Shown: positions 1,836 to 14,280 of the stretch, in pieces
Layout: each line of letters begins with the position of its first letter
Numbering within the stretch: the stretch's first letter is position 1
From: a virus
DNA: 38,063 nucleotides
Reading direction: 5' to 3' (one strand)
Virus record (IMG/VR): IMGVR_UViG_3300032223_000600
Span: 1-38,063 of that record
Position numbers and translations under genes: made by a program
Notes under the pieces: generated by a model
Told to the model about the DNA's origin: nothing
The model's database searches: none
The model's input: the letters and a program-made list of their open reading frames with translations, nothing else

Positions 1836-2763
1836 TTATAGTTGCTCCTTTTGATGCGTGCTTGGCGTAAACTTCGAGCGGAACACCAAGACGTTTAGCA
1901 ATTGCGACTTGCGATGCGGTCAGCGTGACTTTTTTTGAAGCAGCAGTTCTACCTGCAGGTGCCACGGGTGACGACTTCTTGGGTCGATTAAATTTTTCAG
2001 GGAATCGCTTCTGAATACCGCCGTCAATGGCCTGATAGTACTCGTCTGAAGTTGGATCAAACCCTTCATTAACCAATCTCTGGTGCAGTCCATAAGCCAA
2101 CGAGGTCATTTCCTCATCTTTCCCGAACCAAGGGTTGCGTGTCGCCCAATCTTCTGCACGGGGATCACGAGGTACGGGAGCCTGATATTCTGGTTGTGGC
2201 TGATTATATACAGGTTGCTGAGTCGTTTGTAAAGGGGTAGTGTTTTGCCTTACAAAATTCTGCACGTTGTCGTATAAACGGCTTTTCTGAACCGTCAGTT
2301 CACTAATTTCTTTCTGTGCGGACAGCGTGCCTTCAGTATCCCCACTTTCATATGCCCGACGATACTTATCTTCCGCCAGCTTTTCCTGATACTCCAGCTT
2401 AGAGAACGACTCTTTAGTAAACTCTTGCTGCCCATAGTTCAACGTATTATGCAGGCGCTGATTTTCCTCAAGGATAGACTGCGCTATGCGGATAGCTTCG
2501 GCATTTTGACGTTCAAGAGCTTCCTTAGCACGACGTTCATCGTGCATACGGTGGTTTAACTGATTGATCCGCTTTTGAACTTTATCTGAGTAGTGCTCTA
2601 ACTCATCTTCCTGTTCTTCGGTTTCCTTAGCACTAAGTGCTGGTCGGCCTCGATCTTCTTCAGGAGTGTCGTCAATAACTTCAACCTCAATACCACCATC
2701 GTCCTCTTCACCCTGCAGGTGCTTTGGGATTTCAAAATCTTCGTTAATAATCTCTTTAGCCAT
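1828..2763 (-). CDS. Putative capsid scaffolding protein
   Basis: This 311-aa protein has a very acidic N-terminus (about residues 1-55, including GEEDDGG and DDTPEED), a long heptad-like coiled coil at about residues 55-175 (EHYSDKVQKRINQLNHRM and following), a Gln/Pro-rich linker near 180-205 and a basic C-terminal tail (NRPKKSS... AASKK). An acidic helical body with a basic C-terminal helix-forming end is the classic scaffold layout, and the gene lies between portal and capsid. The scaffold would guide shell assembly and then leave. No protease gene is seen nearby, so release without cleavage is possible. The assignment is architectural; sequence similarity alone would not prove it. Confidence 0.65.
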   Translation of the reverse strand: MAKEIINEDFEIPKHLQGEEDDGGIEVEVIDDTPEEDRGRPALSAKETEEQEDELEHYSDKVQKRINQLNHRMHDERRAKEALERQNAEAIRIAQSILEENQRLHNTLNYGQQEFTKESFSKLEYQEKLAEDKYRRAYESGDTEGTLSAQKEISELTVQKSRLYDNVQNFVRQNTTPLQTTQQPVYNQPQPEYQAPVPRDPRAEDWATRNPWFGKDEEMTSLAYGLHQRLVNEGFDPTSDEYYQAIDGGIQKRFPEKFNRPKKSSPVAPAGRTAASKKVTLTASQVAIAKRLGVPLEVYAKHASKGATING

Positions 2764-2771
2764 GATAACTC

Positions 2772-3161
2772 CTAGTAAGCGCGGTTAATACCGCGTGGAT
2801 CAAGCACCGTGCCTTCAATCTGGTCATCGTTCACCATGATAAATTCCTTACCATTAGCGGAAAAACGAGAACCTGAATACGCCCGAAGTAACACAAAATC
2901 GCCTACCTTACACCAAGGGCCAGTAGGAAACTTCTCTTCATCTTTATAGGCCAAATCGCCTACTTTAATGACAAACCCAATTACAGCACCCGCTTCTTCT
3001 TTGCGCAGAAACTCAGAAGGTTTAAGAATGCCGCCTTCGGTTTTCTCTTCGATTTCTGGCTTGACGACGAGGATTTTATACCCCACAGGATCTGGTAATT
3101 GCGCTGCCAGTTTGTCACTTGTTTCTACCGTCTTGGATACGTCAATGTTTGCTGCAGACAT
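2772..3161 (-). CDS. GroES-like co-chaperonin (Cpn10)
   Basis: This 129-aa protein carries the Cpn10 signature: residues about 26-120 contain YKILVVKPEIEEKTEGGILK, then GAVIGFVIKVG, then GDFVLLRAYSGSRF and GKEFIMVNDDQIEGTV. The GGIL tripeptide-plus-Leu at about 43-46 matches the mobile-loop hydrophobic anchor that docks on GroEL. It is longer than bacterial GroES (about 97 aa) because of a 20-residue N-terminal extension and an insertion near residues 70-82. Phage co-chaperonins such as T4 Gp31 pair with host GroEL to fold the capsid protein, and this gene sits inside the head module, consistent with that job. It follows the 61-aa gene with a 1-base overlap. Confidence 0.88.
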   Translation of the reverse strand: MSAANIDVSKTVETSDKLAAQLPDPVGYKILVVKPEIEEKTEGGILKPSEFLRKEEAGAVIGFVIKVGDLAYKDEEKFPTGPWCKVGDFVLLRAYSGSRFSANGKEFIMVNDDQIEGTVLDPRGINRAY

Positions 3162-3354: not shown

Positions 3355-5802
3355 TTACATGGATGGTTTAGGAGGCATAGGCGGTGCAGGTGGTGCACCG
3401 GGAACAGGAGGCTGCATAGGCGGCTGTTGCGCCGCCATTTCTTGCTGTTTCGTAGCAAGATCCATCCCTTTAAATAACCCTTCGACTTTAGCGTCTTGAT
3501 TATGAAGCATCAGTTTTGCTTCGTTGTTAATCATGGCGATTTCTTTCTGGGCTTCGAGTTTCTTAAGTTCAATTTCTTTCTTGTCATGCAGTTCCTGCTC
3601 TCTTAATTGCAGGTCTTTCTGCTGCATCTGCATAACAGGATCTTGCGCCGCCTGTTGGTTTTGCTGCGCTTGGGCTTCACTTTGATGCTGTTGGAGTACC
3701 CGCTGTGCCGCAGCTGCTGCAAGTTGTGATATCTGATTCTCAAGCTCTGGAGATAACTCTTCCTTCGGATCTGGTAAGGAAACACCCAATTGTTTCTCAA
3801 TTTCACGGCGGTATTGGAACCCAACGTGCTCCATAATATGCGCCTGTGCGGCCTGCTGAATAGCCTGTGCTTGTGGGTTTTGACCAATAAGTTGCGCAAA
3901 TTTGGGGTCTTGCATAGCTGCTTGATGCACAGCTAAATGCGCTTCGTGATCTTGTTCGATAAACGCCTTAACAGGCTTAATCTTGAGAATATTCATATTC
4001 TCCGTCACAGGATCTGTCGGTTTTTGGTCGTCTTCGACAATAATGATCTTATCCGCATCCTTAATCCCCATGACCTCTAGCATCTGGCGGTGTAATTCAG
4101 CGAGGTTATAAATCTGAGGGGCCATCTGGGCTAACTGAATAGCCGCCTGATATTGAATAATACGCTGCGCCATCGTGCTGGCATTGGGATCTGCCACCGG
4201 AATAATATCAACCATGTCGTAATCTGACTTTTTGGCTGATGGAGAAGCGTCATAATCCGGCGTATATTCGTATTCTGGGGCGGTATATTCCTTAATGAGG
4301 TGCGCAATGAGCTTAAATTCTTGCTCCATAGACGCATATACACGCGCTTGGATAGCCGACATCACTTTGAGCGTGCGCTCAAGAATTGCAAGGGTAGTAC
4401 CTACCGGAGCTTCGCCATTCATCATGTCTGGCTTAACATCCGCAACCGCTGCAAGTCTACGACCTTCCTCAACTACATTCTGCAGGAGAGTAAACAGCGT
4501 TTGAGATGGCTCTTTATAGGGTAGGGGTAGGATATTATCCCGAATGCTGGATGATGGAACATCCACATCTCTCCACTCACCGGGCATGATGGGAGTATCA
4601 TCGCCCTTAATACGGAGACCCCGTGACTTTAAACCTCCGGGGAGGTTCGATAGCGTGCCAGCATCAATCAACTGACGCACAATAGACGTTGCGCTCTTAG
4701 CAAACCCACCAATTAGGTGAATCAAACCGTACCCATAGGACCCAAATCCGGGGATATACGTGTATTGCACAAAGTGCTGGTTAGGCTGCTTAAACGGATC
4801 ACTTTCGTCGTAATTACGACGGATAGACAGTACTTCTTGCGTGCCTTTCTCTATAGTGACGATATATGGCAAGGCAATCCCTGTCTCTTCCCCAGTATCT
4901 GGGTCTACATCTTCATAACCCTCAAGGTCAAGCTCAGTGTGGATCTCCAGTATCCGGTACCTGTCGTCCTTGATAGCACTAAACCCATCCGCTTCGTCTT
5001 TGCGTTTCTGGATGTCATCAAATTCTTTGTTGGCTTCGCCAAGCTCCACATCCCTATAGAACCCTGCGTATTGCAGTTTCTTAACTTCGTTCTTGGTCTT
5101 ACGCATAACATGCGTAATGCGTGGTGCGGTACGCGCATCACTAGCCCCATAGGGGATATAAAGGTCTTCCGCAGGGACAAACATCGACACCTGACGATTC
5201 ATCGTCGGGTCAAAATACACTTTCTTAAACGCGGCACCCGCCAGCGCCAAAGACCACAACATCTTTTCATGTTCAGGACGGAATTCCTGCATCTTTTCCG
5301 TCAGCTGGTAGTTCATGTCATCTACAACACGGGCGGCAGCTTCTTGGGTATCCCTGTCATCTTTACCAATAACTTTAGCCCTAACGGGTCCCTGTGCCGG
5401 AAACGTCTCCGCAATCATTTCTGACTGGAATCTGATAGCAGCCTCCGTCAACATAGGGTGGTAGACACCACAAGCCCCTTCCCACGGTTCGCTACGATCC
5501 TCGATCTTCAACCCCAACAAATCCAAACCATCTACATAGGTCTGTTCCCACTCTTTGCGGGCGTTGCGGTCATTCTCAAACTCTTCCAGCAAATCAGAAG
5601 CCAAACTCTGCAGTGCAGAGTCATCAATATATTCCGCAAGGTTTGCATCAAATGAGGGTTCTTCCTCAATCTCTACCTCGATATCAAAAATATCTTCACC
5701 ATCATCAGGCCCAATGTTGACCTCAATTGGTTGGTCGTCTTGCTCCGTTAGAAACGGACTTTGTGGGAGTAGGGCTTTATCAATACTGGAAGGTGCTGTC
5801 AT
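3355..5802 (-). CDS. Portal protein (podovirus-type, large)
   Basis: This 815-aa protein would form the dodecameric ring at the capsid vertex through which DNA enters and leaves. Residues about 85-600 form the portal core: EWEQTYVDGLDLLGLKIEDR, then GACGVYHPMLTEAAIRFQSE, then a clip/stem region with YIPGFGSYGYGLIHLIGGFA and SATSIVRQLIDAGTLSNLPG. The C-terminal 200 residues are Gln- and Ala-rich and strongly helical, as in the barrel or crown of P22-like portals, ending in a Pro-rich tail. Length and the acidic N-terminus fit podovirus portals. It lies three genes after the large terminase. Several short antisense frames across it are shadows. Confidence 0.9.
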   Translation of the reverse strand: MTAPSSIDKALLPQSPFLTEQDDQPIEVNIGPDDGEDIFDIEVEIEEEPSFDANLAEYIDDSALQSLASDLLEEFENDRNARKEWEQTYVDGLDLLGLKIEDRSEPWEGACGVYHPMLTEAAIRFQSEMIAETFPAQGPVRAKVIGKDDRDTQEAAARVVDDMNYQLTEKMQEFRPEHEKMLWSLALAGAAFKKVYFDPTMNRQVSMFVPAEDLYIPYGASDARTAPRITHVMRKTKNEVKKLQYAGFYRDVELGEANKEFDDIQKRKDEADGFSAIKDDRYRILEIHTELDLEGYEDVDPDTGEETGIALPYIVTIEKGTQEVLSIRRNYDESDPFKQPNQHFVQYTYIPGFGSYGYGLIHLIGGFAKSATSIVRQLIDAGTLSNLPGGLKSRGLRIKGDDTPIMPGEWRDVDVPSSSIRDNILPLPYKEPSQTLFTLLQNVVEEGRRLAAVADVKPDMMNGEAPVGTTLAILERTLKVMSAIQARVYASMEQEFKLIAHLIKEYTAPEYEYTPDYDASPSAKKSDYDMVDIIPVADPNASTMAQRIIQYQAAIQLAQMAPQIYNLAELHRQMLEVMGIKDADKIIIVEDDQKPTDPVTENMNILKIKPVKAFIEQDHEAHLAVHQAAMQDPKFAQLIGQNPQAQAIQQAAQAHIMEHVGFQYRREIEKQLGVSLPDPKEELSPELENQISQLAAAAAQRVLQQHQSEAQAQQNQQAAQDPVMQMQQKDLQLREQELHDKKEIELKKLEAQKEIAMINNEAKLMLHNQDAKVEGLFKGMDLATKQQEMAAQQPPMQPPVPGAPPAPPMPPKPSM

Positions 5803-11566: not shown

Positions 11567-11690
11567 CGGCTGGGATTTACTGCTAGACGACGACACTATG
11601 CCGTATGAGTGGGACAACCTCGCGTTCCCGATAATGTACCAAGGTGAGGGCTACGAGAGACAGCCGAAGAGGAGCAGCGATGATGATTGA
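11523..11690 (+). CDS. 55-aa overlapping small protein
   Basis: The frame begins at ATG 11523 with CGGAG 8 bases upstream and encodes MIKLTPRNLSQALLDGWDLL, continuing through DDDTMPYEWDN to a basic-acidic end. It overlaps the zinc-ribbon gene by 44 bases and the next gene by 11. It fills the only space between those two genes, which is why I keep it. No domain is recognised. Confidence 0.5.
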   Translation: MIKLTPRNLSQALLDGWDLLLDDDTMPYEWDNLAFPIMYQGEGYERQPKRSSDDD

Positions 11691-12693
11691 TGACGACATC
11701 CTTATAGTAAAGCCCTCCGATTTAGCCATGGCCTATCCAGAACACGTGTTGCAAGTAAATGCAGAGGGTAAAGCCGATCCGGAGTTCCCGATACCCGATA
11801 AGATTTATATGCGCTACGAGCCTGACAGGGAGTTACTCTATATAGATACGATGTTTATCACAGCCGCGGGGCTGGATGAGACTCTAAGCGTGTGGAAAAA
11901 ATCGCAACAATATTGCGGGCCGATGAGTCGGCGTATGGCAACAGGTACGGGGAGGATAGAAGAGCCGAAGAATGTGGCTGTGTTTGACCTTAGCGAGAAC
12001 CCACGGGACAGGGTGGAGCCGATAAAGCGCGGGCGGGGCAGGCCCTTGACGATAGAGAAAATAAGAGCGCGGGAAGCGCAAGCGGCTAAGGTTGCCGAGA
12101 CAATGATAGATATTCGTCGGACTATGAACTCACTCAGGACGCATTACGGGGATCACCTGTGGTTTGATGAGGTAGAGAGGATCTATGCCCTGTCCCGTGG
12201 GATGTTGGAGGACGCACACAAGATGCTGAGTAAGGGCCGCGCTCTTACTAATAAAAGGACAGCGGTAGCCAAGCCTAAGAAGATGCCTGTATCCGAGCGG
12301 ATACACTTGGAAGCTATCGACGCATTCATGACAGACTACGCTTATGCCGTGCATAGAACACTAAAGAGATATAACCTGCGGGATGGCAAGCCGGAGTTAC
12401 AACAGAAAGTAATTCGACCGAAGATAAACCCCGAAGACTGGGTGGGGCGCTATGAGGAGGATGTGCAGTCAGATGGTACGGGGCAGGTGAGGCAGTTGTT
12501 TATTCCTGTGGCAGTGCTTAAAAGCATGAAGGAGTTGCACGACTACAAAAAAGACTATCGCTATTCGAGGAAGGCGCATAAGTTGGTAGGAGACCGCACT
12601 AAGTACTGCGCCGTGTTTAATTTGCTTAGAACTTTTAGATCTAACGAAGAGTACAGTGAGGAGAAAACGGTATTAGACAATACCGAGAATTGA
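11680..12693 (+). CDS. 337-aa protein of unknown function with AT-hook-like segment
   Basis: The protein starts MMIDDDILIVKPSDLAMAYP (AGGAG 5-8 bases before the two ATGs). It has a beta-rich N-terminal third (RYEPDRELLYIDTMFITAAG), then RVEPIKRGRGRPLTIEKI near residues 108-125, an AT-hook-like GRGRP, and a long helical basic C-terminus with WFDEVERIYALSRGMLEDAH. DNA or RNA binding is suggested by the RGRGRP motif and basic charge. Many Lys and Arg residues lie in the last 100. I do not recognise a family. It is the last gene before the four-copy repeat array. Confidence 0.65.
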   Translation: MMIDDDILIVKPSDLAMAYPEHVLQVNAEGKADPEFPIPDKIYMRYEPDRELLYIDTMFITAAGLDETLSVWKKSQQYCGPMSRRMATGTGRIEEPKNVAVFDLSENPRDRVEPIKRGRGRPLTIEKIRAREAQAAKVAETMIDIRRTMNSLRTHYGDHLWFDEVERIYALSRGMLEDAHKMLSKGRALTNKRTAVAKPKKMPVSERIHLEAIDAFMTDYAYAVHRTLKRYNLRDGKPELQQKVIRPKINPEDWVGRYEEDVQSDGTGQVRQLFIPVAVLKSMKELHDYKKDYRYSRKAHKLVGDRTKYCAVFNLLRTFRSNEEYSEEKTVLDNTEN

Positions 12694-12774
12694 GATAGGA
12701 TGGCAACACGCGGATGAGATCCGTAGAAAGCAGCGCAGCGCAAAGGACTGTAGTGTAAGGCAGGGCAGAGCATA

Positions 12775-12837
12775 GGAAAGCAAAGCGGGTGATAGATTCT
12801 AAGAGTCTTGATCCCGGTGGGCTTACCACCAAAGGCA
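12775..12837 (+). repeat. Structured repeat unit 1
   Basis: Conserved flanks bracket the variable core 12791-12812, in which AGATTC (12794-12799) can pair with GAGTCT (12803-12808) around TAA. CGGG/CCCG can enclose it, and GGTGG-GCTTA-CCACC forms the last hairpin. It shares the longer right flank GGCACGGCAGGGCACCGC with unit 3. Confidence 0.7.
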
Positions 12838-12889
12838 CGGCAGGGCACCGCAAAGGATAGCAGTGTATTAAACGGTAGCGCACTGCAAC

Positions 12890-12952
12890 GGAAAGCAAAG
12901 CGGGTTTAGTCTTCTATGAGGGCTTCTCCCGGTGGGCTTACCACCAAATGCA
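12890..12952 (+). repeat. Structured repeat unit 2
   Basis: The core 12906-12927 differs from unit 1 but still folds: AGTCTTC (12908-12914) pairs with GAGGGCT (12918-12924) around TAT. The unit is identical to unit 3 across about 59 bases, indicating recent copying or gene conversion. Confidence 0.7.
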
Positions 12953-12989
12953 TTGCATCGAAAAGTAAAGAAAGGCAGGGCAGCACATA

Positions 12990-13052
12990 GGAAAGCAAAG
13001 CGGGTTTAGTCTTCTATGAGGGCTTCTCCCGGTGGGCTTACCACCAAAGGCA
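12990..13052 (+). repeat. Structured repeat unit 3
   Basis: The core (13006-13027) is identical to unit 2, while both outer flanks (CATA on the left, GGCACGGCAGGGCACCGC on the right) match unit 1. Unit 3 therefore looks like a mosaic of the other two. Confidence 0.7.
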
Positions 13053-13109
13053 CGGCAGGGCACCGCTTAGAATGGAAAATATCCGTAGAGCGCGGCAGTG
13101 TAGGGCACA

Positions 13110-13173
13110 GGAAAGCAAAGCGGGTCGAGGCTTTTAATCAGGCTTCTTCCCGGTGGGCTTACCACCGAAGGCA
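13110..13173 (+). repeat. Structured repeat unit 4
   Basis: The core 13126-13148 is the most different, yet GAGGCTT (13127-13133) pairs with AGGCTTC (13140-13146) around TTAATC. The final hairpin is the same, with the following A changed to G. Confidence 0.7.
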
Positions 13174-13253
13174 GGGTAAGGAACTGCAACGGATAGCAGT
13201 GCAAAGCACAGCAAGATACTGAAACGCTTTTTATTTAATCAGGAGATATAACG

Positions 13254-13853
13254 ATGGCTATTAAAACTTTGACGACCAAGATCACTAACATCAACCCACT
13301 GTTGATGAACAACCCGCAAACCGTAGACAGATTCAACCCTTACACAAAGGCTATGAAGAAGATCAACGACAAGAAAACCCGTAGGACAGACGAAGACTAC
13401 CGCGACCTGCAAGACATCGAGGTGCGGGCTAAGATTTACTGGGACGATTCGGTAGGTATCTACGTGCCGAGTACTTGGGTACTGGCTGCTGTTGCCGCAG
13501 CCTCATTCAAGAAAGCTAAGATCAGTAAGGCAGATGTGCGTGGCTCAGTGTTCACCACAGCAGACAAGATCAAACTCATCTATCAAGATATGGATAAGGT
13601 AAAGACACCTGATGACATCGTGGGCAATCATGATTTCCGTTTGAACATGACGTTGAAGCAGGGGCAGGTGCGTGTGGTTAAAGCCGTGCCGATCTTCCAC
13701 AAGTGGAGTTTTGAAACCGCATTGGAGTTTGATGACAAACTGATTGACCCAGAATCATTGTCTGATATCCTGCAGCACGCTGCACTGTATGGTGGGTTTG
13801 GTGATTTCCGTCCAACTTTCGGACGCGCACACGCGGAGGTGTCCTTTGGTTAA
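13254..13853 (+). CDS. 199-aa conserved phage protein, possible RAMP (Cas7-like) fold
   Basis: The protein opens with a strand TLTTKITNINPLLMNNPQTV, has a basic helical segment near 35-55, then GIYVPSTWVLAAVAAASFKK, and closes with a strand pair around VRVVKAVPIFHKW and a Gly-rich end YGGFGDFRPTFGR (about residues 181-193). A first strand ending in PLL plus a late glycine-rich GxGDxRPxFGR loop is reminiscent of RAMP-superfamily RNA-binding proteins such as Cas7, but no CRISPR gene is nearby and this is inference. AGGAGATA stands 7 bases before the ATG. It directly follows the four-copy repeat region, which could be its RNA partner or its control region. A plain DNA-metabolism protein is also possible. 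Confidence 0.7.
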   Translation: MAIKTLTTKITNINPLLMNNPQTVDRFNPYTKAMKKINDKKTRRTDEDYRDLQDIEVRAKIYWDDSVGIYVPSTWVLAAVAAASFKKAKISKADVRGSVFTTADKIKLIYQDMDKVKTPDDIVGNHDFRLNMTLKQGQVRVVKAVPIFHKWSFETALEFDDKLIDPESLSDILQHAALYGGFGDFRPTFGRAHAEVSFG

Positions 13854-14280
13854 GCAAGACATATTAGATTGGTTCCGTAACAATGGCTATACAGGTTATG
13901 GGGCTACGGTAGACGGCGCAGAAGTCCGGGCTTTCCTTGGATTAACTATGCCAGAAGTAGGCACTAAGTCACAGTACGATGCGGTGGCACTGGCCGAACT
14001 AGCAGCAATTGGTTATGTACGCGATGCCCTCTTGGAGGAGGGCAAGTACCTCAAGGGAGATCAAGGTTCATACCGTGTGCTGCTACCCAGTGAGAATGCG
14101 GCGCAGGTAGAACTGTTCATGGCTAACGCTGGGAAGAAACTAAGGCGGGCACGGAGACTAGCCGAGAGTACACCCAATGAGTACAAACCTGCGAATGACA
14201 ATTCGGAGGCGAGGCTGGCTATGATGCAGAAGTCTATTAAGGAAACCAACATCTATGGGAATGTAAGGAACTCTCTATGA
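13846..14280 (+). CDS. 144-aa protein, possible winged-helix DNA-binding
   Basis: The start is TTG at 13846, with GGAGG about 6 bases upstream inside the previous gene; there is no ATG before residue 35. The protein (MVKQDILDWFRNNGYTGYGA) has a helix-turn region AEVRAFLGLTMPEVGTKSQY and YDAVALAELAAIGYVRDALL, followed by a beta turn GDQGSYRVLLP, which together resemble a winged-helix arrangement. The C-terminus is basic and helical. It overlaps the 199-aa gene by 8 bases, so both are translated together and may work together. Confidence 0.6.
   Translation: MVKQDILDWFRNNGYTGYGATVDGAEVRAFLGLTMPEVGTKSQYDAVALAELAAIGYVRDALLEEGKYLKGDQGSYRVLLPSENAAQVELFMANAGKKLRRARRLAESTPNEYKPANDNSEARLAMMQKSIKETNIYGNVRNSL

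Follow-up and report, generated by a model that had tools for sequence, protein, structure and literature searches.

A tandem array of candidate VIPR guide RNAs with GCA/NN pentamers and covarying two-hairpin tails in a virus genome

What purpose is served by a structured, RNA-like element that a virus carries in four tandem copies between two of its genes? The question is posed by a window of 38,063 nucleotides (positions 1 to 38,063 of IMG/VR virus record IMGVR_UViG_3300032223_000600), which is the whole stretch of DNA that was analyzed. An initial annotation, made from the letters of the sequence, had described four units with shared flanks. These four units, with their common flanks, are present on the plus strand at 12775-13166. 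Each unit folds on this strand into GGG/CCC basal pairs and a distal stem of 6-7 bp, followed by a GGTGG-GCTTA-CCACC hairpin, much as had been proposed. The MFE of the units is between -19.0 and -22.8 kcal/mol on the plus strand, with z scores of -2.6 to -3.4 relative to shuffled sequences, whereas the minus strand of the units is unstable (z scores of -0.2 to -1.2).

A possible answer is offered by VIPR (Viral Interference Programmable Repeat) systems, which are CRISPR-like tools of phages against rival phages, are the subject of a 2026 preprint, and were described there from two clades with GGY/NN repeats (PMC13142463). According to that description, a VIPR system consists of a RAMP carried by the phage, a vap gene, and vrRNAs made of tandem pentamers, each with a conserved triplet and hypervariable NN, that end in a structured 3' tail (PMC13142463). 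The vrRNAs are described as recognizing double-stranded DNA through the NN bases, between which one base is skipped, and as repressing genes of competing phages (PMC13142463). Phage SUSP1 is described as having GGY/NN repeats and an invariable tail, and "a related consensus" is allowed for other types (PMC13142463). Every anatomical part of VIPR is present in the window, namely a vipr homologue, vap, NN pentamers, and a structured 3' tail. We therefore consider it highly probable that a VIPR system has its vrRNA array here, with at least four guide RNAs beside the gene of the presumed effector. Membership is proposed on the strength of the tested sequence homology and fold, together with the repeat statistics and the tail, and not from resemblance alone.

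The pentamers are found in the DNA between the tails, which the initial annotation had left out of the feature and in which 5-base repeats, most of them GCANN, follow one another. The unit boundaries drawn earlier are accordingly displaced: each unit corresponds to the final pair of guide pentamers and the 3' tail in a predicted RNA of ~100 nt, whose variable guide is located upstream. What had been taken for an identical flank, GGAAAGCAAAGCGGG, consists of three array pentamers, where the end of the tract runs into the first hairpin. Between the units, identity is 0.37-0.39 at lags of 5, 10, and 15 bases and 0.22-0.30 at other lags, and the same lag-identity comparison found no 5-base period in the flanking genes. 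Base 1 of the window guide pentamers is G in 92%, base 2 is C in 61%, and base 3 is A in 94%. The last two bases, 4 and 5, are near uniform, with maximal entropy (0.03 and 0.02 bits). Tracts of 9, 11, 8, and 12 pentamers stand 5' of tails 1-4. Because the 5' ends are provisional, so are the resulting lengths of 8-12 pentamers per vrRNA, or 10-14 when two invariant pentamers are counted; the VIPR description gives 9-16.

All of the array features are on the plus strand. The guide tract of vrRNA 1 (12730..12774), whose 5' limit is provisional, reads GCAGC GCAGC GCAAA GGACT GTAGT GTAAG GCAGG GCAGA GCATA. It is followed by the invariant pentamers (GGAAA GCAAA) and the two-hairpin 3' tail at 12775..12832, with the first hairpin, H1, at 12787-12815 and the second, H2, at 12816-12830; vrRNA 1 matches the covariance model of the tails with an E value of 6e-5. 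Pentamer reading and base entropy place the guide tracts of vrRNAs 2, 3, and 4 at 12835..12889 (11 pentamers), 12950..12989 (8 pentamers), and 13050..13109 (12 pentamers). Folding and the covariance model place the corresponding invariant pentamers and tails at 12890..12946 (H1 12902-12930, H2 12931-12945), at 12990..13046, where the tail is that of vrRNA 2, and at 13110..13167 (H1 13122-13151, H2 13152-13166). A fifth tract of 11-12 pentamers, without a recognizable tail, occupies the leader of the vipr gene at 13171..13230.

Similar tail-less tracts are located before the next gene in Vibrio phage 1.266.O (L063 4702-4761) and in phiHSIC (L062 4795-4849). Also, a 23-base repeat, GGATGAGATCCGTAGAAAGCAGC, occurs at the start of the array (12712-12734) and inside guide 4 (13074-13096) in copies that are 74% identical, and it is perhaps a trace of array duplication.

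The short guide of vrRNA 3 (8 pentamers), the duplicated tails, and the fifth tract that lacks a tail could be read as signs that this phage carries a decayed or remnant VIPR locus. We regard such decay as very unlikely, because vipr and vap are both intact in the window, the four tails all fold and fit the covariance model, and the guides retain their consensus bases at 92-94%.

Conservation of the tails was assessed by aligning 34 of them from the window and related phages and by scoring the first stem over nine pairs. In the first stem, 93.5% of cells are paired, compared with 64.9% in shuffled controls and at most 48.6% in slid controls. Compensatory cells number 90 versus 30 in shuffles, where the shuffle count is no probability and the slid controls, which preserve relatedness, are likewise far lower. 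Both-sided changes occur in eight of the nine pairs. The second hairpin is kept in 33 of the 34 tails, as GGTGG/CCACC, GGGTC/GACCC, AGGTC/GACCT, or GAGTC/GACTC. A covariance model detects tails beside vipr in most loci, and 75 of its 77 matches are on the vipr strand; the two others are both weak.

On the plus strand, the 34 tails contain 43 G-T pairs and only 3 A-C pairs, which implies that the plus-strand RNA is the conserved entity. With this excess, the folding, and the 90 compensatory cells, the earlier suggestion of a structured RNA on the plus strand whose changes are compensatory is borne out, and the covarying cores that it proposed to look for in other phages are present in homologous loci. 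Transcription in the direction of the genes, also predicted at that time, is supported as well.

Intergenic repeats with hairpins beside phage DNA-metabolism genes, such as those that neighbor the array region, might instead act at the level of DNA. They could represent iterons, a replication origin, a recombination site, or a mobile palindromic repeat whose hairpins form in single-stranded DNA. This explanation appears extremely improbable, because the G-T excess and the unfolded minus strand indicate selection on a plus-strand RNA, and because the array accompanies the RAMP gene across unrelated phages.

Rfam has no family that matches the tails, either at the gathering score or at E<=1. To this extent, the statement of the initial annotation that no named RNA family shows the pattern is correct, but the anatomy is that of the vrRNAs of VIPR systems as described in the preprint (PMC13142463). 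Two other assignments of the tails were considered and rejected: no tRNA was detected that would favor a tRNA-like element, and no terminator-like site was found in the array on the plus strand.

The vipr gene (13254..13853, plus strand) encodes a protein of 199 aa with a RAMP/Cas7-like predicted fold that belongs to PHROG 4652, whose function is unknown in that library. A profile of this protein and 28 homologues matches PDB 36pp, "SUSP1 Vipr protein", with an E value of 4.4e-33 and has no other PDB match, and by this sequence comparison the protein is homologous to SUSP1 Vipr. The AlphaFold model of the protein (mean pLDDT 92) matches Csm3/Cas7 RAMPs, which form the backbone in class 1 CRISPR complexes, with a best E value of 3.9e-5 and a probability of 1.00, so the modeled structure is a RAMP fold. 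The window Vipr is 32% identical to its Felixounavirus wV8 homologue.

The putative accessory gene, vap (13846..14280, plus strand), begins with a TTG start codon after GGAGG and overlaps the vipr stop. Its product is predicted to have a winged-helix-like N-terminal part and long helices, and a PDB structure search gave no significant match for it. It weakly resembles the Felixounavirus vap (hhalign 27%), and the family is kept adjoining vipr in 14 loci. Neither Pfam nor PADLOC contains a family for vipr or vap.

The locus shares with SUSP1 VIPR (type II of seven published types; PMC13142463, PDB 36pp) a small homologous RAMP (E 4e-33) with an adjoining vap gene, intergenic tandem pentamers of three constant and two hypervariable bases, and a structured 3' tail. 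Both systems are phage-borne, with several vrRNAs per locus. The constant triplet differs, however, in that it is mostly GCA in the window versus GGY in SUSP1 (PMC13142463). The window tail has two hairpins side by side, the first with a stem that is specific to each unit, in contrast to the invariable tail with a pseudoknot described for SUSP1, and, unlike the SUSP1 arrangement in that description, all four tailed vrRNAs are upstream of vipr and have guides of 8-12 pentamers (PMC13142463). The window and its relatives show a clade whose repeats are GCA/NN and whose two-hairpin tail is different and covaries, and this clade provides a natural comparison for how Vipr reads the constant triplet.

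Class 1 CRISPR-Cas backbones (Csm3/Cas7) have the same fold and use an RNA guide with a repeat-derived handle. In the window, by contrast, constant and variable bases recur with a period of 5 bases, and an assignment to CRISPR-Cas was rejected since neither CRISPR repeats with unique spacers nor cas genes were found at the locus. The (G/U)AGNN RNA repeats bound by TRAP also combine a constant triplet with two free bases in a 5-base period; TRAP is a ring protein, and hairpin tails do not occur with it. The period and the triplet pattern of these repeats resemble those of the window, but TRAP is unrelated, whereas the window protein has the predicted RAMP fold.

Homologues of vipr occur in 39 viral contigs as well as in known phages. 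Nearly all of the homologous contigs contain a 5-base-periodic array, either directly before vipr or ~0.5-1 kb behind it, and their joint occurrence links the array to the protein. Known phages that carry the array include phiHSIC, Vibrio phage 1.266.O, LittleE, and Felixounavirus wV8. The constant triplet varies by group: it is GCA in the group of the window, GGT-like in Felixounavirus wV8, GGC-like in mycobacteriophage LittleE, and GCNNA-like in the contig L058. Searches found no DNA similarity of the window to sequenced phages and no prophage in genome contigs that carries a vipr homologue.

Closely related contigs have the same tail allele at the same place in the array, and the guide can differ entirely. 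For example, unit 4 of L007 and unit 4 of L008 have tails that are 100% identical and guides that are 48% identical, which is no higher than the background, as two guides of one array are 60% identical on average. Because guides are replaced and tails are kept, the guide is the fast-changing part. A similar situation is seen within the window, where the near-identity reported for units 2 and 3 applies to the tails, which are identical, whereas their guides are only 57% identical (background level). This explains why unit 3 had been described as a mosaic of units 1 and 2; recombination among the units is upheld, but unit 3 is better read as a second copy of the unit 2 tail with a different guide. 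Identical tails with replaced guides in close relatives show guide turnover directly, and this makes it testable how such systems gain specificities without an acquisition module.

The H1 stem differs between units of one array with its pairing maintained, which is odd for a mere handle, and the tail of SUSP1 is described as invariable (PMC13142463). Perhaps, then, the locus encodes small regulatory RNAs or RNA decoys in tandem, with the variable stems rather than the pentamers as the functional part and a RAMP-like protein that only packages the RNA. We judge this highly improbable, because it is the pentamer tract that changes fast, with guides replaced while tail alleles stay, and because some homologous loci (L053) carry pentamer arrays without these hairpins. 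Also, a 5-base period with two free bases fits the experimentally tested vrRNA code.

If the array is instead a set of VIPR guides, the unit-specific H1 stems might form an added layer of the system, with covarying alleles conserved by array position and the guide swapped as a cassette. We offer this proposal tentatively and consider it rather doubtful. If it is true, H1 alleles could block recombination between neighboring vrRNAs, and they could be landing sites for guide exchange between phages that yield new specificities without Cas1-like acquisition.

By analogy with SUSP1, we infer that the vipr-coding strand is transcribed and processed into RNAs of ~100 nt, in which 8-12 GCA/NN pentamers at the 5' end form the guide and two adjacent hairpins at the 3' end form a tail that would act as the handle. 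Copies of Vipr, a small RAMP, would line up on the guide, one subunit per five bases, and would contact the constant G-C-A. The two variable bases of each pentamer would stay free and read the target DNA, with successive NN separated by one skipped base as in SUSP1. The expected result of binding is that a gene of a rival phage or prophage is silenced, and the vap product probably aids DNA binding.

Searches for targets of the decoded guides gave nothing that beats chance, and no skip rule was favored; the natural targets are probably not among the sequences that were searched. Under the one-base-skip rule, vr1 has 0 exact matches, and vr2 has 2 viral and 25 genome matches, none of which extends. 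The core of vr4 (TA TG AA CC GA CG GT GG) fits exactly under this rule in 27 viral contigs (L068-L094). In 24 of the 27, the fit is at the YWKPERVG motif of a lambda-type portal gene, and the skipped base is always a codon wobble position. The lambda-type portal gene is thus a weak lead as the vr4 target. The remaining three are unrelated single matches in the same scan, so a chance match is to be expected. For the outer dinucleotides of guide 4, agreement with the portal contigs is at the background level (2-4 of 12), and none of the other guides in the window matches these contigs, so the fit may be one lucky match on a common gene. The full vr4 guide was not found in 369 bacterial genomes of one class with up to 3 mismatches, and ~120 guides of related phages searched against ~1.2 Mb of related phage DNA gave chance-level matches at skips of 0, 1, and 2.

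Several observations concern the organization of individual loci. In Felixounavirus wV8 (L065 3630-3950 and 5050-5280), annotated DR_4 repeats fall within a VIPR locus. Genes 95 and 94 have pentamer tracts on either side there, and the annotated repeats overlap the tails that come after these tracts. In Mycobacterium phage LittleE (L064 3500-3900 and 5100-5460), GGCNN arrays with hairpins flank genes 34 and 33; these genes are oriented against the surrounding tail genes, as in a VIPR cassette inserted in a structural gene block. The contig L023 has two array blocks, one before and one after vipr and vap (2500-3000 and 4160-4640), and the second block has tails like those of the window and ends at a helicase-like gene. 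In L053, pentamer arrays at 2820-2945 and 3580-3710 flank vipr and are without two-hairpin tails. Finally, in the window itself, a 14-base perfect inverted repeat, CCCACGGGACAGGG, is located at 12000-12013 and 12188-12201, within the unknown ORF (11644-12693) that precedes the array.
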